A stretch of DNA of 35,372 nucleotides from Nitrospiraceae bacterium (GTDB lineage Bacteria; Hydrogenedentota; Hydrogenedentia; Hydrogenedentales; SLHB01): assembly GCA_011682535.1 (NCBI GenBank), contig JAACEL010000002.1, positions 1 to 35,372 on the forward strand, in the 5' to 3' direction. Below are positions 15,581-32,743 of this stretch, one piece after another. The notes beneath the pieces are model-generated. The model was given only the letters and a program-made list of their open reading frames with translations, did no database searches and had not been told where the DNA came from. How positions within the stretch are numbered: the stretch's first letter is position 1; each line of letters starts with the position of its first letter. Position numbers and translations under genes: made by a program.

Positions 15581-18500
15581 CTAGGCGCGGGTCGCGTTTC
15601 TCCGGACGATCAGGCCCAGGGCGAACGAGAGGGCGAACAGCGTCGTGCCTAGTGATAACCACATTGCACGGCCGCCGCCAGCGCCGATCTCGATCGAGAC
15701 CGTGTTGCCCAGCGCGAGTTCGATGGCCTGGCCAAGCTGCATGACGCCGGCGTGGTTGACCTGAATCTCGATGTAGGTCTGGCCGTCTACGTCCACCGTG
15801 CGCCGACTCTCGGGCGCCATCCACCCGACTACGTTATCGGCCGGGTACCAGCCTTGGTGGCTGGTGGTTTCGCTGTAGTAGTAGATGTCGAGGGCGTCCG
15901 CGCTGACACCTGCCGGTACCGGCAGTTGCAAGGTCAACGGTTCGGCGAAGACGCCGGCCGGCTGCACGCGGTATACCGACGACTGCGGCGCGGCGATCAC
16001 TTCGGGAAGAGCCTCAATACTGTCGACCTCGACCAACTCGGGTACGTTGTCCAGCGCCTTGTCCGCGGCGATGAGGAAATCCTTGGACAGCGGGCCGATG
16101 ATGTCGCCATCGACGGTGACGGCGCCTACGGTCAAGGTGACGCTTTCACCCGGTGCAAAGGGTTCCCCGGGCTCGAAGACCACCCAGCCGTCGTTCTCGG
16201 CGTCCGCGGCCAGCCAGGCGCCGCCGGAGGCGAACCAGCCGCCGCCCTCGGCCACGGCCCAGGCGGACTCGGGGTCGATGGCGGCTTCGGCCGTCACACG
16301 CACGGCCAGTGAAGCGGTTGCGGCAGCCTTGGCGAGGGGAGAGTCCTCGACGCTCAACGGCATCGAAGGCTCGGAGATTTTCTCGTCGAGGCGCTTGAAG
16401 AGCTGCCCGCAGATTCCGCCAGGTTCGTCGATGGCCGACTCGAGCAGGAAGGTCACGGCGATCTGTTGGCCGAGGACGGTGGTCACGTTGCGTGTCTGCG
16501 GGGCGTAGTCCTGCGCCGAGACGGTCAGCGTGTAATCGCCCGGCCGCACGTTGGTGAAGGTGTAGAGTCCGTCCACGCTGCTGGTGAGCACCCGGCCCGG
16601 CGGGTCGAGGCGGACCGAGGCGTCGAGAATTGGGTCGAGGGACTCGGAGTCGCGCACGCTGCACACGATTGTGGAGCGCTGCTCGAAGTATTCGAACGCG
16701 TCCACCGCGGTGACCGCGCCACCCAGCGTGGTGACGGTTACGTCGACCCATTCCGCGGTGGTGTGGGCGGGCGTCAGTATTTCGATCTCCGTGTCAGTGA
16801 CATTGACGATCGTAGCGGCTGCGGTGTTGAATTCCACCGATTGCGCCGTTGCGAGCGCAGTGCCCTGGACCAACACGGTGTCGCCGCCGGAGATGTGTCC
16901 TTCGTCTGGCGACAGGGCGCTGATGGTGGGCACGCCCAGGTACTGATAGGCGTCTTCCACCCGGTGTACGCCGGTCGTCGTGGTGACCTCGACGGCTACG
17001 AAGCCCGGAGCGTTGGGCGGCGCAACGACTTGCAGGCGCGTTTCTTCGGCCGACAGGATCTGTGCGGCCACGCCGCCGAAGGTGATGGAGCGGGTGAGGG
17101 CCAGGTTGCGTCCACGCACGGAGAGCACCTCGCCGCCGACGGCCTTACCCACGCTCGGGGTGATGGCGCCCAGTTCGGGCGGTCCCGGCGGTTCGACGAA
17201 CATGAATCCGGCTACGGCGACCACATCGCCCATTGGCGTGGTGACGTGCACGTCGACAACGCCGCGTTCGTGAGGCGGGGTAAGTACCTCGAGCACCGTG
17301 TCGGAGGCACCGACAATCGTGGCCGCTTCGCCGCCGAATGTGACGGCGGTTGCCTCCGCGAGGCGTCCACCGAGGATGTCCACCGCCTCGCCGCCGAGGA
17401 TGGTGCCCTTGGCGGGGCTCAATTCGCCCAGGAACGGGATCTGACGGAAGACGGCCTGCACGTTTTTGTCGTCGTCCATGGTGATGACGGTGGGATTGGC
17501 GCCGCCTTGCAGGTCGCCCTGCCACTGATCGAACACCCAGCCCTCGGCGGGGGTCGCGATCAGGGTGATCTGCTTGCCCTCCGCATAGACGTACGCGCCT
17601 GGCGGCGGGTTGACGGTGTTCACGCCGCCGCCGCCGATGATATTGCCGATCGTGAGCGTATAGGTGACCGGAGCGGCGGCGAACACCGCCGTGATGGTCT
17701 TGTCGCCGTCCATGGTGATGGAGGTCGGGTTGGCTTCTCCGGTGAGGTTTCCCTTCCAGTGGTCGAACACCCATCCGCTTTGCGGTGTTGCCGACAGGGG
17801 CACTGGCGTGCCTTCGAAATAGCGGTAGAAACCGGCGGCGGGTTGAATCGTGCCGTTGCCCTCGACAACCGTGGCCAAGGTGTAGTCGAAACCGTCTTCC
17901 ACGAAGACGGCGACCACGTTCTTCGGTCCGTCCATGACGATGGTGAACGGGTTGGCCGCGCCTGGAGGCACGTCGCCCTCCCAGCGATCGAACACCCAGC
18001 CCAGTTGGGGAATGGCGTCGATGCTGACCGGGGTGTTCTCGGTGTACTCGCCGTTCTCGCCCACCGGATCGACCTGGACGTCACCGCCGCCTATGGTGCT
18101 GGTCGTCAGCGGATAGAGCGGGCCTCGTTCCACGAAGAAGGCCGTGACGGTCTTGTCCGCGTTCATGACCAGTGTGATGGGGTTCAGGCCGGCCTGCGCG
18201 AGGTCGATGTCGCCTTCCCAGTGGTCGAACAGCCATTCGTCGTCCGGGAAGGCCGTGATCAGTACTTCAGCGCCTTCGCTGTAGTCCGTCTCGCCGGTGG
18301 GCGTGGTCGTGCCATTGCCGCTCACATCGACCGTCAGTGTATAGGCGCCGGCTGCTTCGAGGAATACGGCCGTGGCGCGCTTATCCGCGTCCATCGTGAC
18401 CACGACGGGGTTGTCGGTTGCCGTCACATCGCCTTCCCATCGATCGAACACCCAACCTTCCGCCGGGGTGGCCGTCAGCGTGACTTCGGTGCCCTGTGAA

Positions 18501-20128
18501 TAGGCGCGGGTGCCGGCCGGCGGCTCCACGGAGCCTTCGCCGCGTACCGCGGTGGTCAACTGATAGGTTTGCCCGTGCTGATCGCAGGTACCGTCGAATT
18601 CCACGAGCACCTCGCGCTCGATGAGCGAGGGGATGTCGAAGCAGAGATTCTCCTGGCTCAACTGGTTGCCGCGCAGGTCGACGCGATCCTGCACAAGGGG
18701 GCTCCCCGTCGGTCCGAGACCCGTGTTGGCGACCAGCGCGCTGATGTCGCTGATCTTGTTGTTCGTGAGCGACAGCACGGTGAGATCCGGCAGACCCGCC
18801 AGCGGCGACAGGCCCGTGATCAGGTTGTCGCCGAGGATCACCACGGCCAGATCCGTGAGGAACGTCAGCGAGGTGATGTCGCTGACCATGTTGCCCGACG
18901 CGTCCACGAATACCAGGTCCTTCATGCCCTGTACCGGCGTGAGCGACGAGATCTGGTTGTCCCACAGTCCCAGGCGCATGACTTTGGTCAGATTCGTGAC
19001 GGGCGTGATGTCGCTGACCATGTTGCCGCCGATGTCCAGTTCGATCAACTCGCGGAAGTCGTCGACGATCCCGATGTTGGCGATTTGGTTGTTGCTGAGG
19101 GTGAGTCGGCGCAGGTTGCGCATCAACCGGAGATCCTCCAAAGCGGCGTCATCCAGTTGGTTGTCGTGCAGGAACAGGGCCAGCATCCCGCCCAGATTCT
19201 CGATACCGCTGAGGCTCGTCAGCTCATTGTCTTGCAGTTCCAGGTAGCTCAGGCCGTACAACTCGTGGATAGGCGTCAAGTCGCTGATGCGGTTGCCCGC
19301 CAGATACAGGGAAGTGATCTTGCCCAGTCCCGACAGTGCGGTGAGGTCGCTGATGCGGTTGCCGCCCAGCAGCAGCATTTCCAGGTTGATGCACGCTTCC
19401 AGTCCCTTGAGATTCTCGATGCCCTTATCGGAAGCGTCGAACGCTTCCAGCCGCGCCAGGTCGACGTCATAGAGATCATCCAGCGGCGAGAGGCCCAGGA
19501 ACAACAGCAGTTGTTTCTTGAGGTTCGGGTCGGGCACGTCGACCAGCAGGCGGCCGCATTCACCTTCGGAGTACACGGTCACTTCGAGCGCCTCGAGCGC
19601 GGGAATGATGGTGCATAGGCCTTCCTGGTTGATGAGGTTACCCGTGACGTTGAGGATATCGCCTGCGCCCAGCGCCGGGTGGCCCGACAGCGGGGAGAGA
19701 TCAACGAGCTTGTTGTCGTGGAAGAACAGGAAACGTAATTCGAGGAGGCCGGCCAGCGGTGAGAGGTCGGAGATCTGGTTCTCCCACATGTAGATGTCGC
19801 GTAACGCAGGGAGCGAAGCGAGCGGAGCGATGTCGTCGATGGCGTTGCCGTACAGGTACACTTCGACGAGGTCGGTGCAGTACTCGAGCCCGGTGAGGTC
19901 TTCGATGCCCCGGAAAGTCGCGTTGAGCGAAGTGAACCCTACGCCGACGAGATCGGTGTCCTCGATGGGGCCCGATGGCTTTCCGATCGTGGTACGGATG
20001 GCCTGCTCGAGGCTGACATCGGGAAAGGTCACCTCGAACGCTTGCACCTGACTCGGGATCACGATTGCCGCGATGGCCAGCAACACCACGCCCGACAAGC
20101 CTTTACAGTCCATTAACGCTCTGCGCAT
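15581..20128 (-). CDS. Large secreted/surface protein: LRR array, five InlB-B-type repeats, three IPT/TIG domains, CarboxypepD_reg-like domain, C-terminal TM
   Basis: 1515 aa with signal peptide. LRRs (LxxNxISDLTPL-type). Five GWVFDxWxGD...NP..ITMDxDKxxxAVF repeats. Three SPxxGxxxGGxxVxxxGxxL...V.FGG.AA TIG units. C-terminal hydrophobic helix followed by RRNATRA. Confidence 0.9.
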   Translation of the reverse strand: MRRALMDCKGLSGVVLLAIAAIVIPSQVQAFEVTFPDVSLEQAIRTTIGKPSGPIEDTDLVGVGFTSLNATFRGIEDLTGLEYCTDLVEVYLYGNAIDDIAPLASLPALRDIYMWENQISDLSPLAGLLELRFLFFHDNKLVDLSPLSGHPALGAGDILNVTGNLINQEGLCTIIPALEALEVTVYSEGECGRLLVDVPDPNLKKQLLLFLGLSPLDDLYDVDLARLEAFDASDKGIENLKGLEACINLEMLLLGGNRISDLTALSGLGKITSLYLAGNRISDLTPIHELYGLSYLELQDNELTSLSGIENLGGMLALFLHDNQLDDAALEDLRLMRNLRRLTLSNNQIANIGIVDDFRELIELDIGGNMVSDITPVTNLTKVMRLGLWDNQISSLTPVQGMKDLVFVDASGNMVSDITSLTFLTDLAVVILGDNLITGLSPLAGLPDLTVLSLTNNKISDISALVANTGLGPTGSPLVQDRVDLRGNQLSQENLCFDIPSLIEREVLVEFDGTCDQHGQTYQLTTAVRGEGSVEPPAGTRAYSQGTEVTLTATPAEGWVFDRWEGDVTATDNPVVVTMDADKRATAVFLEAAGAYTLTVDVSGNGTTTPTGETDYSEGAEVLITAFPDDEWLFDHWEGDIDLAQAGLNPITLVMNADKTVTAFFVERGPLYPLTTSTIGGGDVQVDPVGENGEYTENTPVSIDAIPQLGWVFDRWEGDVPPGAANPFTIVMDGPKNVVAVFVEDGFDYTLATVVEGNGTIQPAAGFYRYFEGTPVPLSATPQSGWVFDHWKGNLTGEANPTSITMDGDKTITAVFAAAPVTYTLTIGNIIGGGGVNTVNPPPGAYVYAEGKQITLIATPAEGWVFDQWQGDLQGGANPTVITMDDDKNVQAVFRQIPFLGELSPAKGTILGGEAVDILGGRLAEATAVTFGGEAATIVGASDTVLEVLTPPHERGVVDVHVTTPMGDVVAVAGFMFVEPPGPPELGAITPSVGKAVGGEVLSVRGRNLALTRSITFGGVAAQILSAEETRLQVVAPPNAPGFVAVEVTTTTGVHRVEDAYQYLGVPTISALSPDEGHISGGDTVLVQGTALATAQSVEFNTAAATIVNVTDTEIEILTPAHTTAEWVDVTVTTLGGAVTAVDAFEYFEQRSTIVCSVRDSESLDPILDASVRLDPPGRVLTSSVDGLYTFTNVRPGDYTLTVSAQDYAPQTRNVTTVLGQQIAVTFLLESAIDEPGGICGQLFKRLDEKISEPSMPLSVEDSPLAKAAATASLAVRVTAEAAIDPESAWAVAEGGGWFASGGAWLAADAENDGWVVFEPGEPFAPGESVTLTVGAVTVDGDIIGPLSKDFLIAADKALDNVPELVEVDSIEALPEVIAAPQSSVYRVQPAGVFAEPLTLQLPVPAGVSADALDIYYYSETTSHQGWYPADNVVGWMAPESRRTVDVDGQTYIEIQVNHAGVMQLGQAIELALGNTVSIEIGAGGGRAMWLSLGTTLFALSFALGLIVRRNATRA

Positions 20129-20436: not shown

Positions 20437-21075
20437 ATGACAAAGAGCGCAAACGCCCGGAATATGCTGTTGATGACCGCTGTGATCGTTGGTTTTGGAC
20501 TGGCCGGTATGGGATGTTCGCCAACGATCCCGTTCGCGTTCGACATCTCTATCAACTTGGGAACGTATGACTTGAGTGCCCTGCAGGTCTACGCGGGGCT
20601 GTTCGCCGGGGCCGAGATTCCCGAGGATTTCGAGGCGCCTGCGTTACCCGTGTGCAACTTGCCCACACAGGAGGAGATCCGGGAGCTGGTGAGCGAAGCC
20701 GCTGGCGATTGGGTGGCTAACCTCATTCATCTCAAGGCGATGAACCTGGTTGCGACCGAACTCACGGCCATATCGGGCGATTTCGACGACCTCACGTACC
20801 TCTCGTTGCAGTGGCAACCCAAACCGTTGGGTGGTGTGGCCCAGCCCTCCGTGAACCTCGGCACGGCCGATTCGGCGTTGGGGCTTGGCACGCAAATCCT
20901 GTTGGGGCCGCCTGTTCCGGTGGATTTCCTGGCACTGATCGAGGATGACGCCGCCAACCCGGCGACGGAGTGTGCTTCGTTGGGCATCGACGTGGACGGC
21001 GTCGTGCCCAGCACCGTCCCCGTGATGGCGGTGACGGTCACGTTGAACGTCGTTGGCGAGGTCCGGCTGCGCTGA
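20437..21075 (+). CDS. Predicted lipoprotein of unknown function
   Basis: MTKSANARNMLLMTAVIVGFGLAGMGCSPTIPF: hydrophobic N-terminus with lipobox-like Cys. ATG preceded by tggagga. No family recognised. Confidence 0.75.
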   Translation: MTKSANARNMLLMTAVIVGFGLAGMGCSPTIPFAFDISINLGTYDLSALQVYAGLFAGAEIPEDFEAPALPVCNLPTQEEIRELVSEAAGDWVANLIHLKAMNLVATELTAISGDFDDLTYLSLQWQPKPLGGVAQPSVNLGTADSALGLGTQILLGPPVPVDFLALIEDDAANPATECASLGIDVDGVVPSTVPVMAVTVTLNVVGEVRLR

Positions 21076-21153
21076 CCGGCTGCCGCGGCCCATTCTTAGA
21101 TGACTTGACGGTTGGTGCGGGGGGGCGCACAATGGGGCGAGAGGTGTTGCTTC

Positions 21154-22125
21154 GTGACCGTCCAATGTGAATTGTGCCCCAAGAACTGCGTGATCGCGCC
21201 TGGCCAGAGCGGTGAGTGCCGGATCCGGGTGAATGTGGACGGGCAACTGCTGGCGGTCACCTGCGGGTACCCGTGCTCCGTGCACGTGGATCCCGTCGAG
21301 AAGAAGCCGCTGTACCATTTCCTGCCCGGGTCGAGCATTCTGTCCATTGCCACCGTTGGCTGCAATCTGCACTGCAAGAATTGTCAGAACTGGGAGATCT
21401 CGCAGGAGGATCCGGAAAATGTGCGGGCACGCGAGTTGCCGCCCGCCCTGTTGCCCGAACTGGCCCGCCAGCAGGACTGTGAATCGGTGGCCTACACCTA
21501 TACTGATCCCTGCGCCTACTATGAGTATGCGCTCGACGGTTCAATCGCCGTGCGCGATGCGGGGCTCCGGAATGTGTTGGTGACGGCGGCCTACTGCAAC
21601 CAGGAGCCCTGGAAACGCTTGTGCGCGTACACGGATGGCGCCAATATCGACATCAAATCGATATCGGACCAGTTTTACCGGGACATCTGCTCGGGCCGCC
21701 TGGCTCCGGTGTTGAATGCGTGCGTGGCGGCGAAGTCGATGGCGGTGATGGTGGAGATTACCAATCTGGTGATCCCAACGCTCAACGATTCGGACGATGA
21801 TCTGCGCGAGTTGTGCCGCTGGATCGTCGAGAATCTAGGCAAGGATACGCCGCTGCACTTCTCGCGGTTTTTCCCCCACTACCAGATGCGCAATCTCCCG
21901 CCGACGCCGCCTGAAACGCTCGACCGTGCCAGGGCCATCGCGCTGGCGGAGGGGTTGTACTACGTTTACATCGGCAACCTGTCGCGGCCGGAGGCCGAGC
22001 ACACGTACTGCCATTCCTGCAAGGCGGTCTTGGTGAAGCGCCGAGGCTACCGGGTACTGGAAAACACGGTTCGCGCGGGGGCCTGTCCCCAATGCGGCAC
22101 GGAGGTCTACGGCGTATGGCAATGA
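21154..22125 (+). CDS. amrS: AmmeMemoRadiSam system radical SAM enzyme
   Basis: GTG start; MTVQCELCPKNCVIAPGQSGECRIRVNVDGQL...TVGCNLHCKNCQNWEISQEDPENV. CxxxCxxC cluster motif in the AmrS context. An alternative start at 21112 is in frame. Confidence 0.92.
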   Translation: MTVQCELCPKNCVIAPGQSGECRIRVNVDGQLLAVTCGYPCSVHVDPVEKKPLYHFLPGSSILSIATVGCNLHCKNCQNWEISQEDPENVRARELPPALLPELARQQDCESVAYTYTDPCAYYEYALDGSIAVRDAGLRNVLVTAAYCNQEPWKRLCAYTDGANIDIKSISDQFYRDICSGRLAPVLNACVAAKSMAVMVEITNLVIPTLNDSDDDLRELCRWIVENLGKDTPLHFSRFFPHYQMRNLPPTPPETLDRARAIALAEGLYYVYIGNLSRPEAEHTYCHSCKAVLVKRRGYRVLENTVRAGACPQCGTEVYGVWQ

Positions 22126-22292
22126 AACGCAGGAGCTTTATCGAGGCGGTGATCGCCGCCCCATGGGTGTGGCTGGCGGCATGCGTGGCGCCGCGCCGCT
22201 GGCGCGAGGCGGTGCGATCACGGCATTATCCCGGACCGGTGGCGCCGCTCGACCCGGCTGAGATCCGGCGGCGGGGCCGGTGGGCGGGGTGA
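22122..22292 (+). CDS. Very small ORF with twin-arginine-type signal and lipobox-like Cys, C-terminal GRWAG
   Basis: MKRRSFIEAVIAAPWVWLAACVAPRRWREAVRSRHYPGPVAPLDPAEIRRRGRWAG. ATG overlaps the upstream TGA (ATGA). Stop is 18 nt before the next ATG. Alternative start at 22116 (MAMKRR). Confidence 0.65.
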   Translation: MKRRSFIEAVIAAPWVWLAACVAPRRWREAVRSRHYPGPVAPLDPAEIRRRGRWAG

Positions 22293-22310
22293 TTGATCGA
22301 GGGTGATGCG

Positions 22311-23885
22311 ATGCGGCGGCAACAGCGGGAGCACAGGGTTGGGGCGGCTAGTGTGGCGCGATTCGTGACGGTTTGGACGTTTATGGCGGTCGCGATCTCT
22401 TGCCGCGAGGAGGTGGCCGCCCGGGAACCGGAGGCCGGACCGGTGAAGCGCGTGCTGACGTCCGCCTTGGCGGGGCGTTGGTATACGGACGACGCGGCGG
22501 AGCTTTCCGAGGAACTGGACGGATACCTGGACTCGGTGGATGCGGAGCCGTTGGCGAACGTCCATGCGCTGATCCTGCCTCACGCGGGATACCGCTACTC
22601 CGGGCAGGTGGCCGCGTACGGTGTCAAACAGTTGGCGGGCCAGTCGTTCAAACGGGTCGTGGTGCTGGGGCCATCGCACCGTTTGCGGATGGCCAACCGG
22701 GCGAGCGTGCCGTCGGCCACGCACTATGCGACGCTGCTCGGCGAGGTCCCTCTCGACCTGGACTTCATCGCCGCTCTCAAACGTCATCCCCAGTTCGTGA
22801 CGGTGCCTGAAGCCCACGATGGCGAGCACAGTGTGCAGATCGAGGTGCCGTTACTGCAACGGGCGCTGGGCGCGTTCACGCTTGTGCCGATTGTGGTCGG
22901 CCAGCTTGACGCGGACACCGCGCGCGCGATGGGCGGGATTGTGAAGGGACTGTTGGGGCCGGACACGCTCGTCGTAGTCAGCAGCGACTTCGTCCACTAT
23001 GGGTCGCGGTTCGACTACGTGCCGTTCAAGGACGACGTGGCGGAGAACCTGAAGAAGCTCGATCTGGGCGCATGGGAGTTTATCGAGCGGCGCGATGTGG
23101 CCGGGTGGTATGACTACATTGACGAGACGGGCGCGACCATATGCGGCAGGCACGCGATTGCCGTGTTGCTGCCCATGTTGCCGGACGACTCATCCGCCCA
23201 TCTGCTCCGCTACGACACGTCGGGCCACATTACCAATGACTGGAGCAACTCGGTAAGCTACCTGAGCATCGCGTTCAGGTGTACGTGGGAAAGGGGAACA
23301 CCGATGGAAGCCGAGAAGCCGGACACCGCCACTCTCTCCGAGGACGAGAAGAAGCAGTTGCTGTCCTTAGCGCGGGGGACGTTGGAGTACTATGTCGAGC
23401 ATGACCGCATGCCCAAGCCGGCGGATCTGGGGGTAGCGATCACGGCGGGAATGGAGCAGGTGATGGGCGCGTTTGTGACGCTGCACGAGCACGGACGGCT
23501 GCGCGGCTGCATCGGCGAGATCTTCCCGCGGCGCCCGTTGTACGAGGCCGTCATGGACCACGCCGTGAATTCCGGCATGCGCGACCATCGGTTCACGCCA
23601 GTTGTGGCCGAAGAACTGCCCTTGCTGCACTACGAGATCTCCGCGTTGACGGTTCCCGAACCTGTCGCTTCCTATGAAGACATCGAGATCGGACGGCACG
23701 GCATGGTGATCGAGAAGAACGGGCGTACGGCGGTGTTCTTGCCCCAAGTCGCCCCGCAACAGGGCTGGGACATCGCCGAAACGCTCACTCAGTTGTCGCG
23801 TAAGGCCGGACTGCCCGGCGATGCCTGGAAGGAGGGGGCGGCGTTCACGGTTTTCGAGGCCATCGTGTTCGAGGAGGCGCAGTAG
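22311..23885 (+). CDS. AmmeMemoRadiSam system protein B (Memo-like) fused to protein A (AMMECR1-like), with N-terminal signal/lipobox-like segment
   Basis: N-terminal half: RWYTDDAAELSEELDGYL, ALILPHAGYRYSGQVAAYGVKQL, VVVLGPSHRL, VVSSDFVHYGSRF (Memo). C-terminal half: LLSLARGTLEYYVEHDRMPKP, GAFVTLHEHGRLRGCIGEIFPRRPLYEAVMDHAVNSGMRDHRFTPV (AMMECR1). TTG at 22293 is an alternative start. Confidence 0.93.
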   Translation: MRRQQREHRVGAASVARFVTVWTFMAVAISCREEVAAREPEAGPVKRVLTSALAGRWYTDDAAELSEELDGYLDSVDAEPLANVHALILPHAGYRYSGQVAAYGVKQLAGQSFKRVVVLGPSHRLRMANRASVPSATHYATLLGEVPLDLDFIAALKRHPQFVTVPEAHDGEHSVQIEVPLLQRALGAFTLVPIVVGQLDADTARAMGGIVKGLLGPDTLVVVSSDFVHYGSRFDYVPFKDDVAENLKKLDLGAWEFIERRDVAGWYDYIDETGATICGRHAIAVLLPMLPDDSSAHLLRYDTSGHITNDWSNSVSYLSIAFRCTWERGTPMEAEKPDTATLSEDEKKQLLSLARGTLEYYVEHDRMPKPADLGVAITAGMEQVMGAFVTLHEHGRLRGCIGEIFPRRPLYEAVMDHAVNSGMRDHRFTPVVAEELPLLHYEISALTVPEPVASYEDIEIGRHGMVIEKNGRTAVFLPQVAPQQGWDIAETLTQLSRKAGLPGDAWKEGAAFTVFEAIVFEEAQ

Positions 23886-23900
23886 GACGTGGGCGGAAGA

Positions 23901-23945
23901 TCCCGAACGCCGGGTGGCGTATTGTGGCGCGCCCGAAGTGCTTGG
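23901..23945 (+). repeat. Copy 2 of the stop-codon-adjacent dispersed repeat
   Basis: tcccgaacgccgggtggcgtattgtggcgcgcccgaagtgcttgg, nearly identical to 7220-7264, 15 bp after the stop at 23885. Confidence 0.85.
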
Positions 23946-24059
23946 GTGCTCGAAAGATACGCTCAGCCACGCCGCCACCAAGCGGGTGAGAAGCGACAAC
24001 GCTATGCGACGTAAATGCTGCCGCCCGAAGGGTTCTGGCCGAACTCCTAGGCCTATCAG

Positions 24060-27000
24060 ATGATTGGGGGAAGGGGAGTCTCGGCGGAACGGCCGGCGGG
24101 CCGGATGATCGCGGTCGCGGGGCTGGGCTTCTTCGCGCTTGTCGCGCAGACGCTGTTGTTCCGCGATTTCTTCACGGTCTTCGAAGGCAGTGAGCTGGGG
24201 GTGGGCGCCTTCTTTGGTTCGTGGTTCATCTGGGTGGCGTTGGGGGCGTTGGCGGGGCGGATACCGTCGCGCTTACACGACGCGGCCGCCGGGCATGTGC
24301 GCGTGTTGGCCTTGCTGTACATTCCCGCCTTCGTCTTGCAGCACAGCGTCGTGTTGCACACGCGCGAACTGGCCGGGGTCGAGGCCTACGAACTGTTTCC
24401 CTTCGCCCCGATGCTGATTGCGTCCTTCGCGGTGAACGCCCCAACCAGTTTTCTCACCGGGTCGTTGTTCGCGCTCGCGTGCCGGTGGGTGGCGGAGCAA
24501 TCGAAGCATGCCGTATCGCGCGTTTATATCAGCGAGACGCTGGGGGCATGCGCGGGTGGAGTGTTCGTGACGGTGCTGCTCGTGTGGGGACTGCCGGGCG
24601 AGGCCGTGTTTGCGGCGGCGGCTTGGGCTCTGTGCGCGGTCCTGGGCGTTTCGGCGATGCTGACCGGTTGCCGCCTCCGCGCGGGGCTGGCGATTATGGC
24701 CGTAGTGGGGATGCTTGGGGCTGGGCTGTTCTGCGGCGGCGTGGGTGCGCGCTGGGCGGACTACGAGCAGCGCGCGGCCTGGTCGCGGTTGTTACCGGCG
24801 GAACAATACGGCGGGAGCTTCTCGACGGCGCAGTCGCGGTATCTGTACGGCTGGCGTGAGAATCAACTCATGGTGATCTCGGGCGGCGGCGTGAGCGAGA
24901 CGTTCCCCGGGGATGATCAGGCGGGGGCGGTCGTCGCGTTGCACATGGCGCAGCGGCCCGAGGCGCGCAACGTGTTGGTGTTCGGCGAAAACGCCCTGGG
25001 CATTTGCGCGGCGTTCAAGATGCTTCCGCAGATCCAGCACGTGACCTGGCTGCATCCGGATCGGGCCTATCCCAGGACGTTGATGGAAGCGTTGGCGGAC
25101 GAGGGAAGATCCGCGGCCGGGCCGGACGAGATTCCCCAAAAGGACATTCGCACGTTTGCGCGTGAAACGCAGCGCCGGTTCGATCTGATTGTCTTGAACT
25201 TGCCCGACATGACGACGCTCGTGCTGAACCGCTACGCCACCGTGGAGTTTTTCACGCTGATGGCGTCGATTCTGGAGACAGATGGACTTGTGTCCGTGCG
25301 GGTGTCGGGGGGCGAGAACTATGTCGGCGGCGAGCTGGCGTTGCTGGGCGCTTCGATGCTCGACACGCTCGATGCGGTGTTTCTGAAGACGATCCTGACG
25401 CCTGGTGAGGACACGTGGTTCCTGGCTGCGAACGGCGGCGGCCTGATGGAGCGCCCGGAGTGGCTGGCGCGGCGCTATGCGGGGATCGAGGGCGCCAGTG
25501 CGGTGTATCCGCCGGAGGGTGTTCGCGGGTTGTACCGGCCGGGCCGGGCGGCGTTCCAGATGGACGCGTACCGCGCGGCGATGGCCGAGACGCCGCGGAA
25601 TCTGCTGCGTAACACTGATCGCTCGCCGAAGGCGCTGGCGTATAACCTGTTGCTGGCTGTTAAGCAGGCCGAGTGGCGGCGGTTGGCCCGGTCGCTGCCT
25701 GCGTTGTGGCGGGTGGGACCCTGGCTGTTGGCTGGGCCGGTACTGCTATACGCCCTGCTGCGTCTGGTGTTTTTGCTCAAGACACGGTGGACGACGGGTG
25801 ACGACGGCGTGACCGATTTGAAGTTCCTGGTGTTTACGATGGGTGTGGCGAGCATCTCGCTGAGCATCGTTCTCATGTTTCTGTATCAAGTGCAGTTCGG
25901 GACGTTGTTCCTGCACATGGGTGTCATTACGGCGCTCTTCATGGCTGGTTCGCTTGTCGGAGCGATGGGAAGCGCGCGCTTCCTCACGCGATGGCCCCGG
26001 GGGCCGCTGTTGGTGTGCCTGACCGGTCACCTGTTGCTGTTTGGGGGCGTGGCCTTGCTGCCCGGCGCCGCTTCGCGCGGGACGTACGCCGGACTGTTCG
26101 CGCTGTGCGGTGCGTTCACCGGCGTGTACTTTCCTATCGCGGCGGCGCGGCTGGCGGCGGCCGGGGCGCCGGTGCGTGCGAGCGGTGCGGGACTCGAGAT
26201 GCTCGACCATCTCGGCGGAGCCGTGGGGGCTTCGCTGACGGGATTGGTCCTGCTGCCGATGTGGGGCGCCACGGCGGCCCTGGGCGTGCTGGCCCTGTTG
26301 GTGGGCGTCAACGGTCCCTTGCTGGCATTGAGCCGGACACCCAAGACGCGGGGAGACGCGTTTGACCGCCTGGTGCGTCCAGCCGCCTACGCGACCGCAG
26401 GGGTGGCCATCTATCTGCTGGGTGTGTCGGCCGCGGTGGCACATGGCGAGCCGGCCACAATGGGCGATCCGGTGGTCGATGCGGCGCGCACCATGGCGGG
26501 GGCCACCGAACTGGAGTCCAAGGAAGCTGTGCTGCCGGATGGGACGGCGGTGGTCTACTTCGCCGTGACCGAGTCCGACGACCGCGCCAAGGGCTATGTG
26601 TTCCCCTGCGACCCGTGGGCGTCGAAGGTGTACGGTTATCTTGGCCCTATTCAACTCGCGGCCTACACCGACGCGCAGGGCGTGCTGCTGGATTATGCGG
26701 TGTTGCGTTCGTATGAGACGCCATCTTATCTGTACCACGTGGAATCGTTTCACGACCGCTTGATGGGAGCGAGTCTGTTCACCGCGGGGCCATTCGACGG
26801 CGTGGACGCCGTCAGCGGGGCAACGATCACCGACGTGGCGATTCGCAGGACGCTTACGTTGGCGGGGCAGGGCTTTGCCCGGGACGTGCTGGGCGTGAAC
26901 GGCGAACTCGAGCCTGCACCCGCGCCAAGCGCGGCCGACTTCTTTGGTAGCACCGGCTTTCGTGATTTCGCCGTGTTGGCCGCACTCACGCTCGCCGCCA

Positions 27001-27935
27001 TACTCCACCGGTATCGGCCCCGTGTGTGGTCGCGGCGCGCGATCCTGCTGACGAGTCTGTTGGCGGCGGGCCTGTGGCTCAACCTGCAGTACTCGACGCA
27101 ACAGGTGATATCCCTGGCGGGATTGACCCTGGGCGGTGTGGTGCTCAATGGCCCCTTCTTTCTATTGGTCGTTGTGCCGGTGGTTGTGGTCCTGTTCGGG
27201 AATGTGTACTGCGGGTACGTGTGTCCCTTTGGCGCGCTGCAGGAGCTTGTGGGCGACCTGGCGCCCAAGCGTCTGCGCGGCGGTGTCGACAAGCAAGCTT
27301 GGCGCTACGGCCGGGCGGTGAAATATGGGCTGCTGTTCCTTGTGTTGGCCGCCTTCGCGCTCACGCGCGACTATGGCCGTCTCGAGGCCGACCCCCTGGT
27401 CAGTGTGTTCGGCATGGCTCGGGAGCGGCCCGTCGTCATCATCGTTGTGTTGAGCGTGGCGCTTTCGCTCTTCTACAAGCGCTTCTGGTGCCGGAATCTG
27501 TGCCCGGCGGGGGCGTTTCTCTCCTGGCTGAACGGCGCGCGGCTCCTGGGGCGCCTGATCCCCCGGCGTTACCCGGAGCGGTGCGACCTGGGCGTGCGGA
27601 GCAATGCCGAACTGGACTGCATCATGTGCGACCGCTGCGGCTGGACGCGCCCGGAGACCTCCCGAAGCAGGCGCGTGCTGATGGTCCATGGCGTGTGCGT
27701 GGCGGCGGCCGCGGCGATCTTCGCGGGCGCGATGTTCTCAGGAGAGCCCCCGGTCGAGGCGGGATCGGCCGTGCCCGGCATCGGCGAAGCCGATGTGCCC
27801 ACGGGGGCCGGTCAAGCGCGTGACGTGGACGCGGAACGTATCCGGACACTGATCGACCAAGGCCACCTGTCCGGCCGCGAGGCCGAGTACTATGGGCCGG
27901 TATCCGCCGACGGCCCGGCGCCGGACATGCCTTGA
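24060..27935 (+). CDS. Multidomain membrane redox protein: SpeE-like/MFS-like N-terminus, FMN-binding domain, NosR/NapH-like 4Fe-4S membrane domain
   Basis: 1291 aa. Multi-TM N-terminus with SpeE-like segment (FDLIVLNLPDMTTLVLNRYATVEFFTLMASILETDGLVSVRVSGGENYVGGE). FMN-binding flavinylation-type motif DAVSGATITDVA. C-terminal CGYVCPFGALQE and CRNLCPAGAFLSWLN typical of NosR/NapH polyferredoxins. Confidence 0.88.
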   Translation: MIGGRGVSAERPAGRMIAVAGLGFFALVAQTLLFRDFFTVFEGSELGVGAFFGSWFIWVALGALAGRIPSRLHDAAAGHVRVLALLYIPAFVLQHSVVLHTRELAGVEAYELFPFAPMLIASFAVNAPTSFLTGSLFALACRWVAEQSKHAVSRVYISETLGACAGGVFVTVLLVWGLPGEAVFAAAAWALCAVLGVSAMLTGCRLRAGLAIMAVVGMLGAGLFCGGVGARWADYEQRAAWSRLLPAEQYGGSFSTAQSRYLYGWRENQLMVISGGGVSETFPGDDQAGAVVALHMAQRPEARNVLVFGENALGICAAFKMLPQIQHVTWLHPDRAYPRTLMEALADEGRSAAGPDEIPQKDIRTFARETQRRFDLIVLNLPDMTTLVLNRYATVEFFTLMASILETDGLVSVRVSGGENYVGGELALLGASMLDTLDAVFLKTILTPGEDTWFLAANGGGLMERPEWLARRYAGIEGASAVYPPEGVRGLYRPGRAAFQMDAYRAAMAETPRNLLRNTDRSPKALAYNLLLAVKQAEWRRLARSLPALWRVGPWLLAGPVLLYALLRLVFLLKTRWTTGDDGVTDLKFLVFTMGVASISLSIVLMFLYQVQFGTLFLHMGVITALFMAGSLVGAMGSARFLTRWPRGPLLVCLTGHLLLFGGVALLPGAASRGTYAGLFALCGAFTGVYFPIAAARLAAAGAPVRASGAGLEMLDHLGGAVGASLTGLVLLPMWGATAALGVLALLVGVNGPLLALSRTPKTRGDAFDRLVRPAAYATAGVAIYLLGVSAAVAHGEPATMGDPVVDAARTMAGATELESKEAVLPDGTAVVYFAVTESDDRAKGYVFPCDPWASKVYGYLGPIQLAAYTDAQGVLLDYAVLRSYETPSYLYHVESFHDRLMGASLFTAGPFDGVDAVSGATITDVAIRRTLTLAGQGFARDVLGVNGELEPAPAPSAADFFGSTGFRDFAVLAALTLAAILHRYRPRVWSRRAILLTSLLAAGLWLNLQYSTQQVISLAGLTLGGVVLNGPFFLLVVVPVVVVLFGNVYCGYVCPFGALQELVGDLAPKRLRGGVDKQAWRYGRAVKYGLLFLVLAAFALTRDYGRLEADPLVSVFGMARERPVVIIVVLSVALSLFYKRFWCRNLCPAGAFLSWLNGARLLGRLIPRRYPERCDLGVRSNAELDCIMCDRCGWTRPETSRSRRVLMVHGVCVAAAAAIFAGAMFSGEPPVEAGSAVPGIGEADVPTGAGQARDVDAERIRTLIDQGHLSGREAEYYGPVSADGPAPDMP

Positions 27936-27991: not shown

Positions 27992-29374
27992 ATGATCGAT
28001 CTGCTCAAGCACGGTGAGAAAATTCTGTCGACGGCGTTGGCCAACGGCGGAGGACTCGCGGAGATATTTCTAGAAGACACGTCGCGCACGTCGATTCGTT
28101 TCGAAGACGGCAAGGCGGAGCGTGTGGTCTCGGGGCGGGATCTCGGCGCGGGCATTCGCATTCTGACGGGCGACCGTACCCTGTTCGCCCACACCAATGA
28201 CGTGTCGCTGGCCGGATTGATCCAAGCCGCGAAGACGGTGGCCGGGGGCGCAAGCGAGGAACGCGGCACGTATTCCTTCGACTTCCAACCCGAGCGTTTT
28301 GAAATGCCGGTGGGCGTGGCGCCAGGAAGCGTGTCCACGCCTCAGAAGCTCGGCCTGATCACGGCGGCCGACAGCGCCGCGCGCGCGTTCGACGGACGCG
28401 TGGTGCAGGTCAAGGTCATGTATGGCGACTCCGTGCGCCGTGTCCTGATTGTCAACTCCGACGGACGTTTCGTGGAAGATGTCCGCCCGCAGATTATCCT
28501 GATGGTCGAGGCCGTGGCCGCCGATGGGAGCGTGATCCAGACCGGCCGTCGCCCGCTGGGGGGCGCTTTGGGTTTTGAACTGTTCGACGAGACCGATCCG
28601 CAGGACATTGCCGAGGCCGCGGCCAGGCAGGCGTGCCTCATGCTCGACGCGCAACCGGCGCCCACGGGACAGATGCCCGTCGTCATCGGCAGCGAAGCGG
28701 GCGGCACGATGATCCACGAAGCGGTCGGCCACGGACTTGAAGCGGATCACATCGACAAGGGCATGTCCAAGTACTGCGGGCGTCTCAACGAGATGATTGC
28801 CGTGCCCGAGGTTACCGTGGTCGACGACGCCACCCTGGCGCGCAAGCGCGGCACGTTCAACGTCGATGACGAAGGCACGCCTGCACAGCGGACGGTGCTG
28901 ATTGACCAGGGCCGCCTCGTGAGTTTCCTGCACGACCTCAAGTCGGCGCGCAAGATGGAGATCGCGCCCACGGGCAACGGCCGGCGGGCGTCCTACCAGG
29001 ACAAGCCGATCCCTCGCATGACGAACACGTTCATTGCGCCCGGCGATGCCGATCCCAAGGAAATACTCGCTTCGACGGACAAGGGGCTGTATGTGCGCAA
29101 GATGGGCGGTGGCCAAGTCGATCCGTTGAACGGCGATTTCGTGTTCGAGGTCAGCGAGGGCTACCTGATCGAGAACGGCGTGGCCGAAACGCCCGTGCGT
29201 GGCGCGACGCTCATCGGTAACGGCCCGGATGTGATTCAGAATATCGAGTTGGTGGGTAACGATCTCGGTTTCGACATAGGCACGTGCGGGAAGGGCGGCC
29301 AAGGCGCGCCCGTCAGCGACGCCCAGCCCACTATCCGCATCCGCGAACTAACCGTCGGCGGCACGGCACAATAA
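27992..29374 (+). CDS. tldD: Metalloprotease TldD
   Basis: 460 aa. AEIFLEDTSRTSIRFEDGKAERVVSGRDLGAGIRIL, GGTMIHEAVGHGLEADHIDKGMSKYCGR (HExxxH), GGGQVDPLNGDFVFEVSEGYLIENG, IGNGPDVIQNIELVGNDLGFDIGTCGKGGQGAPVSDAQPTIRI. Confidence 0.95.
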   Translation: MIDLLKHGEKILSTALANGGGLAEIFLEDTSRTSIRFEDGKAERVVSGRDLGAGIRILTGDRTLFAHTNDVSLAGLIQAAKTVAGGASEERGTYSFDFQPERFEMPVGVAPGSVSTPQKLGLITAADSAARAFDGRVVQVKVMYGDSVRRVLIVNSDGRFVEDVRPQIILMVEAVAADGSVIQTGRRPLGGALGFELFDETDPQDIAEAAARQACLMLDAQPAPTGQMPVVIGSEAGGTMIHEAVGHGLEADHIDKGMSKYCGRLNEMIAVPEVTVVDDATLARKRGTFNVDDEGTPAQRTVLIDQGRLVSFLHDLKSARKMEIAPTGNGRRASYQDKPIPRMTNTFIAPGDADPKEILASTDKGLYVRKMGGGQVDPLNGDFVFEVSEGYLIENGVAETPVRGATLIGNGPDVIQNIELVGNDLGFDIGTCGKGGQGAPVSDAQPTIRIRELTVGGTAQ

Positions 29375-30470: not shown

Positions 30471-31541
30471 ATGTACAACGGACTGAATCTTAGCCTGGGT
30501 AACCTCTGCCTGCTGTCCGACGCGAAGACGCGCTCGATCTCGCCCGAGAATTTCACGGGTGAAAAGGGCAAGGGCGGCATGGCCACCGAAGGCACCGGCG
30601 CCAAGTGCGCGCGCGACCTTGGGCAAGGCTGGAAGATCTCGCCGAGCGTCGCCGTCAAGGCCGGCGAGGTCTTCGAACTGGCCGTCATCGAAGGCCCGGG
30701 GGCCATCCAGCAGATCTGGATGACGCCCACCGGCAACTGGCGCTTCAGCATCTTGCGCATCTACTGGGACGGCGAAGAAGAGCCGAGCGTGGAATGCCCT
30801 ATCGGCGATTTCTTCGGGATGGGGTGGGGACAGTACGCCCATCTGAACTCGCTGCCCGTCTGTGTCAACCCCGGCAGCGCGTTCAACTGCTATTGGGAGA
30901 TGCCGTTCCGCAAGCACTGCCGCATGACGTTCGAAAACGTGGCCGACGAAGACATGACGCTCTATTACCAGATCAACTATGCCCTTACGGAGGTGGCCCA
31001 AGACGCCGCCTACTTCCACGCGCAGTGGCGGCGCACCAATCCGCTCGAGTACCTGGACGTGTACACTATTGTCGACGGCATCCAGGGTAAGGGCCAGTAC
31101 GTAGGCACCTACATGGCGTGGCAGGTCAACAGCACTGGGTGGTGGGGCGAAGGCGAGATCAAGTTCTTCATGGACGGCGATGACGAGTATCCCACGATCT
31201 GCGGCACGGGTACGGAAGACTACTTCTGCGGCTCCTACAACTTCGACCGCAACGGCCAGTACACCGAGTTCTCGACGCCGTTCGCGGGGCTGCCGCAGGT
31301 CATCCGTCCCGACGGCACCTATCAATCGCAGCAGCGCTTCGGTCTCTACCGCTGGCACATCATGGACCCGGTCCGTTTCGAGAGCGACCTGAAAGTCACC
31401 ATGCAGGCGCTGGGCTGGCGTTCCTACGGCCGCTACCTGCCACTGAAGGACGACATCGCCTCGGTGGCCTACTGGTACCAGGCCGAGCCCCACGGCGCGT
31501 TCCCGAAACTGCCGGAGCGTGACCTCCTGGAGAACATCTAA
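30471..31541 (+). CDS. DUF2961 (GH172-like) protein, copy A
   Basis: GPGAIQQIWMTPTGNWRFSILRIYWDGEEEPSVECPIGDFFGMGW, GEIKFFMDGDDEYPTICGTGTEDYFCGSYNF, FGLYRWHIMDPVRFESDLKVTMQALGW. Confidence 0.93.
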   Translation: MYNGLNLSLGNLCLLSDAKTRSISPENFTGEKGKGGMATEGTGAKCARDLGQGWKISPSVAVKAGEVFELAVIEGPGAIQQIWMTPTGNWRFSILRIYWDGEEEPSVECPIGDFFGMGWGQYAHLNSLPVCVNPGSAFNCYWEMPFRKHCRMTFENVADEDMTLYYQINYALTEVAQDAAYFHAQWRRTNPLEYLDVYTIVDGIQGKGQYVGTYMAWQVNSTGWWGEGEIKFFMDGDDEYPTICGTGTEDYFCGSYNFDRNGQYTEFSTPFAGLPQVIRPDGTYQSQQRFGLYRWHIMDPVRFESDLKVTMQALGWRSYGRYLPLKDDIASVAYWYQAEPHGAFPKLPERDLLENI

Positions 31542-31648: not shown

Positions 31649-32743
31649 ATGACTAATGGACTGAATATGGGACTCGGCAATCTTTCCCGCCTTTTCGGGG
31701 GGGTCACCCGCTCGCTGTCGGCCGAGAACATCAACGGAGAAAAAGGACGCGGCGGCATGGCCACCGAAGGACGCGGATCTTTCAACGCCCGCGGCCTCGG
31801 CGGGCGTCCGTGGAAAGTGTCCCCTGCCGTCGACATCGAAGCCGGCGACACCTACCTCATGGCCGATGTGGACGGCCCCGGCGCCATCCAGCAAGTCTGG
31901 ATCACGATCACGAAGGCTTGGCGTCACAGCGTTCTCAGAATCTACTGGGACGACGAAGACACGCCCAGCGTCGAAACGCCGATCGGTGATTTCTTCGGCA
32001 TGGGCTGGCAGGAATACGCCCATCTCAACTCCATTCCCGTGACGGTGAACCCCGGCAGCGCCTTCAACTGCAACTGGGTGATGCCGTTCCGCAAACACTG
32101 CAAGATGACCATCGAGAATCTCGGCGACGAGAAGATCACCCTCTTCTATCAGGTGAACTACGCCCTGGCCGAGATCCCCGATCGCGCCGCCTATTTCCAT
32201 GCCCAGTTTCGGCGCACCAACCCGTTGCCCTACAAACAGGACTACACCATCGTCGATGGTATCCAAGGCAAGGGACACTACGTCGGCACGTACATGGCGT
32301 GGCAGGCTAACAACAAGGGCTGGTGGGGCGAAGGCGAGATCAAGTTCTTCATGGACGGTGACCAGGAGTTTCCCACCATCTGCGGCACCGGTACGGAGGA
32401 CTACTTTTGCGGTTCGTATAACTTCGAGCCCAATTGGCAGGTGACGGGTTTCCTCGGGAATTACAAGGAGTTCTCGACGCCCTACGCCGGCCTGCATCAG
32501 GTCATCCGGCCCGACGGCACGTTCAACTCGCAACAGCGTTTCGGCATGTATCGCTGGCACGTCATGGATCCAATCCGTTTCGAGGAGGATCTGCGCGTCA
32601 CGATGCAGGCGTTGGGCTGGCGGTCCAACGGACGCTATCTGCCGTTGCAGGACGACATTGCCTCGGTGGCCTATTGGTATCAGGCCGAGCCGCACGCGCC
32701 GTTCCCCCAGTTTCTCCATCGCGACGACCTGGAAGTGATCTGA
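31649..32743 (+). CDS. DUF2961 (GH172-like) protein, copy B (tandem paralog)
   Basis: Strong collinear similarity to 30471-31541 (GPGAIQQVWITITKAWRHSVLRIYWDDEDTPSVETPIGDFFGMGW; GWWGEGEIKFFMDGDQEFPTICGTGTEDYFCGSYNF). Confidence 0.93.
   Translation: MTNGLNMGLGNLSRLFGGVTRSLSAENINGEKGRGGMATEGRGSFNARGLGGRPWKVSPAVDIEAGDTYLMADVDGPGAIQQVWITITKAWRHSVLRIYWDDEDTPSVETPIGDFFGMGWQEYAHLNSIPVTVNPGSAFNCNWVMPFRKHCKMTIENLGDEKITLFYQVNYALAEIPDRAAYFHAQFRRTNPLPYKQDYTIVDGIQGKGHYVGTYMAWQANNKGWWGEGEIKFFMDGDQEFPTICGTGTEDYFCGSYNFEPNWQVTGFLGNYKEFSTPYAGLHQVIRPDGTFNSQQRFGMYRWHVMDPIRFEEDLRVTMQALGWRSNGRYLPLQDDIASVAYWYQAEPHAPFPQFLHRDDLEVI

Follow-up and report, generated by a model that had tools for sequence, protein, structure and literature searches.

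The operon described here probably encodes an AmmeMemoRadiSam system that works outside the cytoplasm, with an escort, a docking site and an electron feed of its own. The AmmeMemoRadiSam trio (AMMECR1, Memo and the radical SAM enzyme AmrS) is widespread, and its enzymes are usually assumed to be intracellular; the human relatives MEMO1 and AMMECR1 are of medical interest. A more specific reading, in which a radical SAM enzyme works beyond the cytoplasmic membrane, helped by a tiny Tat escort and by one membrane protein that gives it a docking strand, electrons and perhaps SAM, is put forward tentatively. The first-pass annotation had placed only the neighbours of the trio in an envelope role; on the present evidence the whole trio, together with its neighbours, appears to be outside.

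Gene content and conservation of the locus

Open reading frame calls on the window (the whole 35,372-nucleotide stretch of DNA analysed) give five consecutive + strand genes at roughly the positions, and in the order, first proposed, i.e. a lipoprotein, AmrS, a 56-residue small ORF, a Memo-AMMECR1 fusion and a giant membrane protein (Table 1). The recognition of an AmmeMemoRadiSam trio among them also stands, all three proteins exceeding the NCBI cut-offs: AmrS scores 366.6 bits against TIGR04337 (cut-off 220), and the single chain containing Memo (PF01875, 7e-57) and AMMECR1 (PF01871, 2e-49) scores 207 bits against the Memo-like TIGR04336 (cut-off 26) and 153.7 bits against the AMMECR1-like TIGR04335 (cut-off 99). 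From sequence comparison, AmrS most likely starts at the GTG at 21154, giving 323 residues, the usual length in relatives. The upstream lipoprotein, initially counted as part of the unit, has no match at any relative's locus and was ruled out as an operon member.

Table 1. Positions in the window of the operon genes and of features within the giant membrane protein
Feature	Position	Strand	Basis or remark
AmrS	21154..22125	+	TIGR04337; start by comparison with relatives; exported clade on core tree
56-aa small ORF	22122..22292	+	R-R-x-F and W-x-G invariant in 26 aligned homologues
Memo-AMMECR1 fusion	22311..23885	+	PF01875, PF01871; signal/lipobox; metal ligands by alignment
Giant: TM bundle, SpeE-like, TM bundle, FMN, NapH/NosR-like Fe-S membrane domain, extra TM, tail	24060..27935	+	
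SpeE (spermidine synthase)-like soluble domain, approximate	24807..25532	+	Model of homologue L070 mapped through alignment
FMN-binding domain	26634..26849	+	PF04205, residues 859-930
S-GAT flavinylation motif	26814-26825	+	By position within FMN-binding domain
Fe-S motifs region	27210..27638	+	PF12801, invariant Cys
CGYVCPFGA	27210	+	
CRNLCPAGA	27489	+	
CDLGVR...CIMCDRC	27582-27638	+	
Giant C-terminal tail, TM helix first, proposed AmrS-docking segment	27663..27935	+	Motif; own ORF in some relatives

The gap ahead of the giant, previously put at about 175 bp, measures 174 bp. No terminator-like site lies within it, promoter and terminator matches in the region are no more frequent than in shuffled sequences, and no signal isolating the giant from the trio stands out above chance; in 27 of 47 relatives' loci the start of the giant overlaps the Memo-AMMECR1 stop. 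Directly 3' of the giant in the window is a TldD-like metalloprotease (27992-29374, +), which is not beside the giant in the relatives examined. Further out, positions 15581-20128 (-) encode a 1515-residue protein that combines leucine-rich repeats with repeated GWxFxxWxGD units and resembles an anchor at its C-terminus; a 31% homologue of it adjoins AmrS at locus L073 (genome G002). Positions 30471-31541 and 31649-32743 (+) encode two neighbouring proteins, probably paralogues, whose starts are alike (NGLNxxLGNLxxL).

The operon is conserved across several phyla. Across 68 genomes from the window's phylum, a high-scoring AmrS lies about 2 kb 5' of almost every full-length giant, and many of these genomes hold an additional, lower-scoring AmrS at another site. 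With the giant as query, 79 loci were obtained from 84,980 species genomes, their labels being Hydrogenedentota, Planctomycetota, Lentisphaerota, Kiritimatiellota and Verrucomicrobiota, plus a few Proteobacteria and Spirochaetota; AmrS, small ORF, Memo-AMMECR1 and giant occur together at about 45 of the 79, the source genomes being mostly metagenome-assembled. The giant and small ORF are thus not confined to a single strain, and the survey of AmrS neighbourhoods suggested by the first-pass annotation finds both recurring with AmrS in several phyla. A second arrangement is found in the phyla of Desulfosarcina and Neomarinimicrobiota, where AmrS has a twin-arginine-type N-terminus of its own, Memo-AMMECR1 has a signal, and the giant is divided between two proteins, one SpeE/MFS-like and the other an Fe-S membrane protein. 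Parts of the giant are near 72 of 94 AmrS of the predicted exported clade (see below) compared with none of 61 cytosolic AmrS, these being related loci that are not phylogenetically independent, such that a Fisher value for these counts does not amount to a probability; contig ends are a partial cause of the 22 exported-clade cases that have no giant part nearby.

That the genes are mere neighbours, or share regulation while serving unrelated envelope functions, might be suggested by those loci in which AmrS and the small ORF are apart from Memo and the giant. However, the unit is conserved over several phyla, starts overlap, the same parts are found both fused and split, and the genes still co-occur in genomes where they are separated, which leaves this explanation with very little credence. 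When shared neighbours were considered as candidate substrates, the only one to stand out was a Tat-signal protein, presumably DUF362-like, which recurs near seven Tat-type AmrS (L172, L327, L328, L331, L333, L334 and L335) and is a possible AmrS partner or substrate.

Predicted export of the trio and the role of the small ORF

A core tree of AmrS, built without the N-terminus and accompanied by a quick tree, divides (support 99/97) into a cytosolic clade and a predicted exported clade; two changes, the minimum, account for the labels on it. The exported clade comprises 34 loci where AmrS has its own Tat-type signal (called, as for the small ORFs, from pattern and hydropathy) and 60 where AmrS has no signal and the small ORF is next; the two are mutually exclusive, no locus having both. 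The latter class was first drawn by the small ORF itself, and the core tree, blind to the small ORF, recovers it. The small ORF follows all 60 window-type AmrS, its start overlapping the AmrS stop as ATGA in 36 of them, as in the window, and is absent beside the 61 cytosolic and 34 Tat-type AmrS. The existence of two alternative signal arrangements, i.e. an AmrS signal in cis or a small ORF, is well supported, and the predicted extracytoplasmic location of AmrS in this clade is well supported computationally. At one locus (L364) an automatic call of a Tat signal on AmrS was rejected, the small ORF being present there instead; one exported-clade AmrS (L329; G199, Neomarinimicrobiota) has a Sec-like hydrophobic N-terminus rather than a twin-arginine one.

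Export of the Memo-AMMECR1 beside exported AmrS is likewise well supported as a prediction. The N-terminus of the window's fusion, as was missed in the first reading, has a signal sequence with a lipobox (AVAIS-C), and a Memo signal is present in 64 of 65 exported-AmrS loci with a nearby Memo, which are related loci, compared with neither of two cytosolic AmrS loci with one; stand-alone Memo proteins of the same genomes mostly have no signal. The Memo domain is homologous to human MEMO1 (7KQ8, 3BCZ) and in alignment keeps all three metal ligands, H49, H81 and C244, which bind iron/copper in MEMO1 (PMC11081632), but differs in being predicted to be exported, fused to AMMECR1 and partnered by a radical SAM enzyme. 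Besides the exported fusion, the window's genome has three more Memo genes (G000:C563, C235 and C128).

The small ORF of the window (MKRRSFIEAV...HYPGPVAPLDPAEIRRRGRWAG) has, in common with all 26 aligned homologues, R-R-x-F near its start and a terminal W-x-G; YPG is common and Cys is not conserved. The lipobox proposed for it did not hold up on comparison: 5 of 60 small ORFs have a lipobox-like motif and 34 of 60 have no Cys, ruling out a lipoprotein. With respect to a twin-arginine role, the RRxF is invariant and TatC is encoded in the window's genome, while the window's ORF itself matches none of the Tat profiles; more generally, Tat-type sequences score under the cut-off of Pfam TAT_signal, only two of ten pass TIGR01409, and several small ORFs and Tat-type AmrS N-termini score weakly against TIGR02811 ('formate dehydrogenase region TAT target', small). 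We infer that the small ORF is a Tat escort of AmrS. The earlier suggestion of an exported substrate or partner is retained in part: the small ORF is conserved and has the look of an exported protein, but an escort for export describes it better than a substrate, since no small ORF is present in systems whose AmrS has its own Tat-type signal.

The latter observation also bears on the proposal that AmrS is cytosolic and that the small ORF is a RiPP-like substrate, perhaps modified at W-x-G and then exported by Tat to join Memo-AMMECR1 and the giant. The coupling of AmrS to the small ORF is tight, holding where Memo and the giant are distant or elsewhere (genome G057, L084; L123), the C-terminal W-x-G is invariant, and the fold of the AmrS model is closest to pyruvate formate-lyase activase, an enzyme that generates a peptide glycyl radical. 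However, the sister AmrS group, which has giant parts and an exported Memo-AMMECR1, has its own Tat-type signal and no small ORF, and the proposal leaves unexplained both a segment missing from AmrS and a like motif on the giant's tail (see below); we regard it as quite improbable. Alternatively, the small ORF's hydrophobic RR sequence might be an anchor tethering AmrS to the inner face of the membrane by the Fe-S sites of the giant, only Memo-AMMECR1 being exported. SAM and electrons are readily at hand inside, Tat profile scores are marginal, and few small ORFs have a clear AxA cleavage site, all of which would be in keeping with an anchor. A plain anchor has no need of an invariant R-R-x-F, though, and with positive charges in, the W-x-G end of the small ORF would be outside; moreover, several Tat-type AmrS, e.g. 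L083 and L277, have textbook signals with AxA sites, such that inner-face tethering is unlikely compared with Tat escort of AmrS.

The giant membrane protein and its C-terminal tail

The giant (1291 residues) matches FMN_bind (9e-5) and Fer4_5 (7e-18) and has similarity to NosR/NapH and to polyamine aminopropyltransferases. Its FMN-binding domain is above the PF04205 cut-off and has the SGAT motif; an ApbE is encoded in the genome (G000:C379, 203.5 bits), and an ApbE-like gene, named by eye from its sequence, adjoins four such loci. Averages of hydropathy and positive charge predict that the FMN domain is outside and the Fe-S clusters inside. The extracytoplasmic electron route of the first-pass annotation is thus upheld in that the giant has an SGAT flavin site on its predicted outer face, plus Fe-S sites. 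With 59.7 and 40.1 bits against curated NosR/NapH profiles with cut-offs of 1000 and 213, the giant would work like NosR/NapH and is not a member. It shares the SGAT FMN-binding domain and the CxxxCP Fe-S membrane domain with the NosR/NapH and flavinylated membrane carriers (PMC8238504) and differs from them in its fused MFS-like/SpeE-like half and C-terminal tail; in the main text of that paper (Meheust et al. 2021) there is no mention of Memo, AMMECR1, radical SAM or spermidine.

A sequence search found no solved-structure relatives of the giant or AmrS. In a model of the giant homologue L070 (pLDDT 82.6), a spermidine-synthase fold lies between two TM bundles, the best Foldseek match being 1uir_B (E 1.7e-7). 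The fold alone is shared, the giant scoring 25.2 bits against the curated SpeE profile (cut-off 472). Membrane-embedded polyamine aminopropyltransferases (PRK03612) also have a SpeE-like fold among TM helices, whereas in the giant the nucleotide-binding motif is degenerate and flavin/Fe-S parts are fused. By analogy with 6+6 transporters, the SpeE-like domain would be on the inner side. SAM transport by the SpeE/MFS half was considered and set back to speculation only.

The tail of the giant may account for an unusual feature of AmrS. In many cytosolic and Tat-type AmrS an E-A-x-x-Y-x-K-L motif is present about 17 residues ahead of the first Cys, its strict form being found in fewer than half of AmrS other than the small-ORF type; this segment is ordered (pLDDT about 96-98) where a Tat-type AmrS was modelled by AlphaFold. 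By contrast, small-ORF-type AmrS begins just ahead of the first Cys without EAxxYxKL, that of the window having no signal sequence and opening V-T-V-Q-C-E-L-C. The tail of the giant follows one further TM helix, which by the hydropathy/charge topology would place it outside, and in homologues ends LSxxEAxFYxK; that of the window reads GxARDVDxERIRTLIDQGHLSGREAEYY (REAEYY at 27876-27893). A strict EAxxYxKL-like motif is found in 39 of 55 tails compared with 0.1 in shuffles, and the tail, either fused or as a separate ORF, is present in all 46 complete giants beside small-ORF AmrS. L072, apparently a tail-less giant, was rejected as such: its tail is encoded in a separate frame that a length filter had removed from view. 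At one small-ORF locus (L272) the FMN/Fe-S protein is without a tail, and the small ORF itself reads KEAQFYKRGDRWAG. From this short-motif match, a candidate case of common origin, it is inferred that the tail docks AmrS.

Other tail-less giants are second copies, or come from genomes in which every AmrS is cytosolic and no Memo was found (G079, G081). Tail-less paralogues were noted at L147, L152, L154, L162 and L163; in the genomes of two of these, L147 and L154, AmrS is again of the cytosolic type only and Memo was not found. Such paralogues may work with a different extracytoplasmic enzyme.

Proposed mechanism and relationship to known systems

It may be that AmrS folds and acquires its Fe-S clusters in the cytosol, where, having no signal, it would bind the 56-residue protein, the twin-arginine sequence of which would take the pair through Tat by hitchhiker export. 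Once outside, AmrS would dock on the C-terminal tail of the giant as the source of its missing EAxxYxKL segment. Electrons would probably pass from the cytosolic side via the membrane Fe-S sites of the giant to an FMN outside, predicted to be covalently bound, and thence to the radical SAM cluster. The Memo-AMMECR1 lipoprotein, with its MEMO1-type His-His-Cys metal site, would be on the same side as a partner or the next enzyme. Escort and docking are plausible as physical mechanisms. The reaction is most likely one that modifies an envelope cofactor or protein. Outside the cytosol, a radical SAM enzyme would need SAM on that side of the membrane, and we know of no SAM source in that location; supply of SAM or a related molecule by the SpeE-like/MFS-like half of the giant is a speculative possibility.

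The formal definition of AmmeMemoRadiSam (TIGR04335, TIGR04336 and TIGR04337) does not include location, so predicted export does not break membership. The present version differs in that Memo and AMMECR1 are fused and have a lipobox, AmrS belongs to a clade of its own and has its Tat-type signal either in cis or, apparently, in trans, and the trio is joined by the SpeE/FMN/Fe-S membrane protein. The proposed escort resembles Tat hitchhiker export of PaoABC (PMC4273604), in which a twin-arginine partner likewise carries a folded cofactor protein; here, by contrast, the carrier would be a protein of about 60 residues and the cargo a radical SAM enzyme. An exact-phrase text search of open-access papers found none that names a radical SAM enzyme as periplasmic, exported or secreted, and only passing mentions of the AmmeMemoRadiSam trio were found in the literature.

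This variant, which comes with partners of its own and for which a location and an electron source are predicted, reduces the problem of what the trio does to parts that can be tested. If the proposal of an extracytoplasmic radical SAM enzyme is true, one has to ask how low-potential electrons and SAM get outside.
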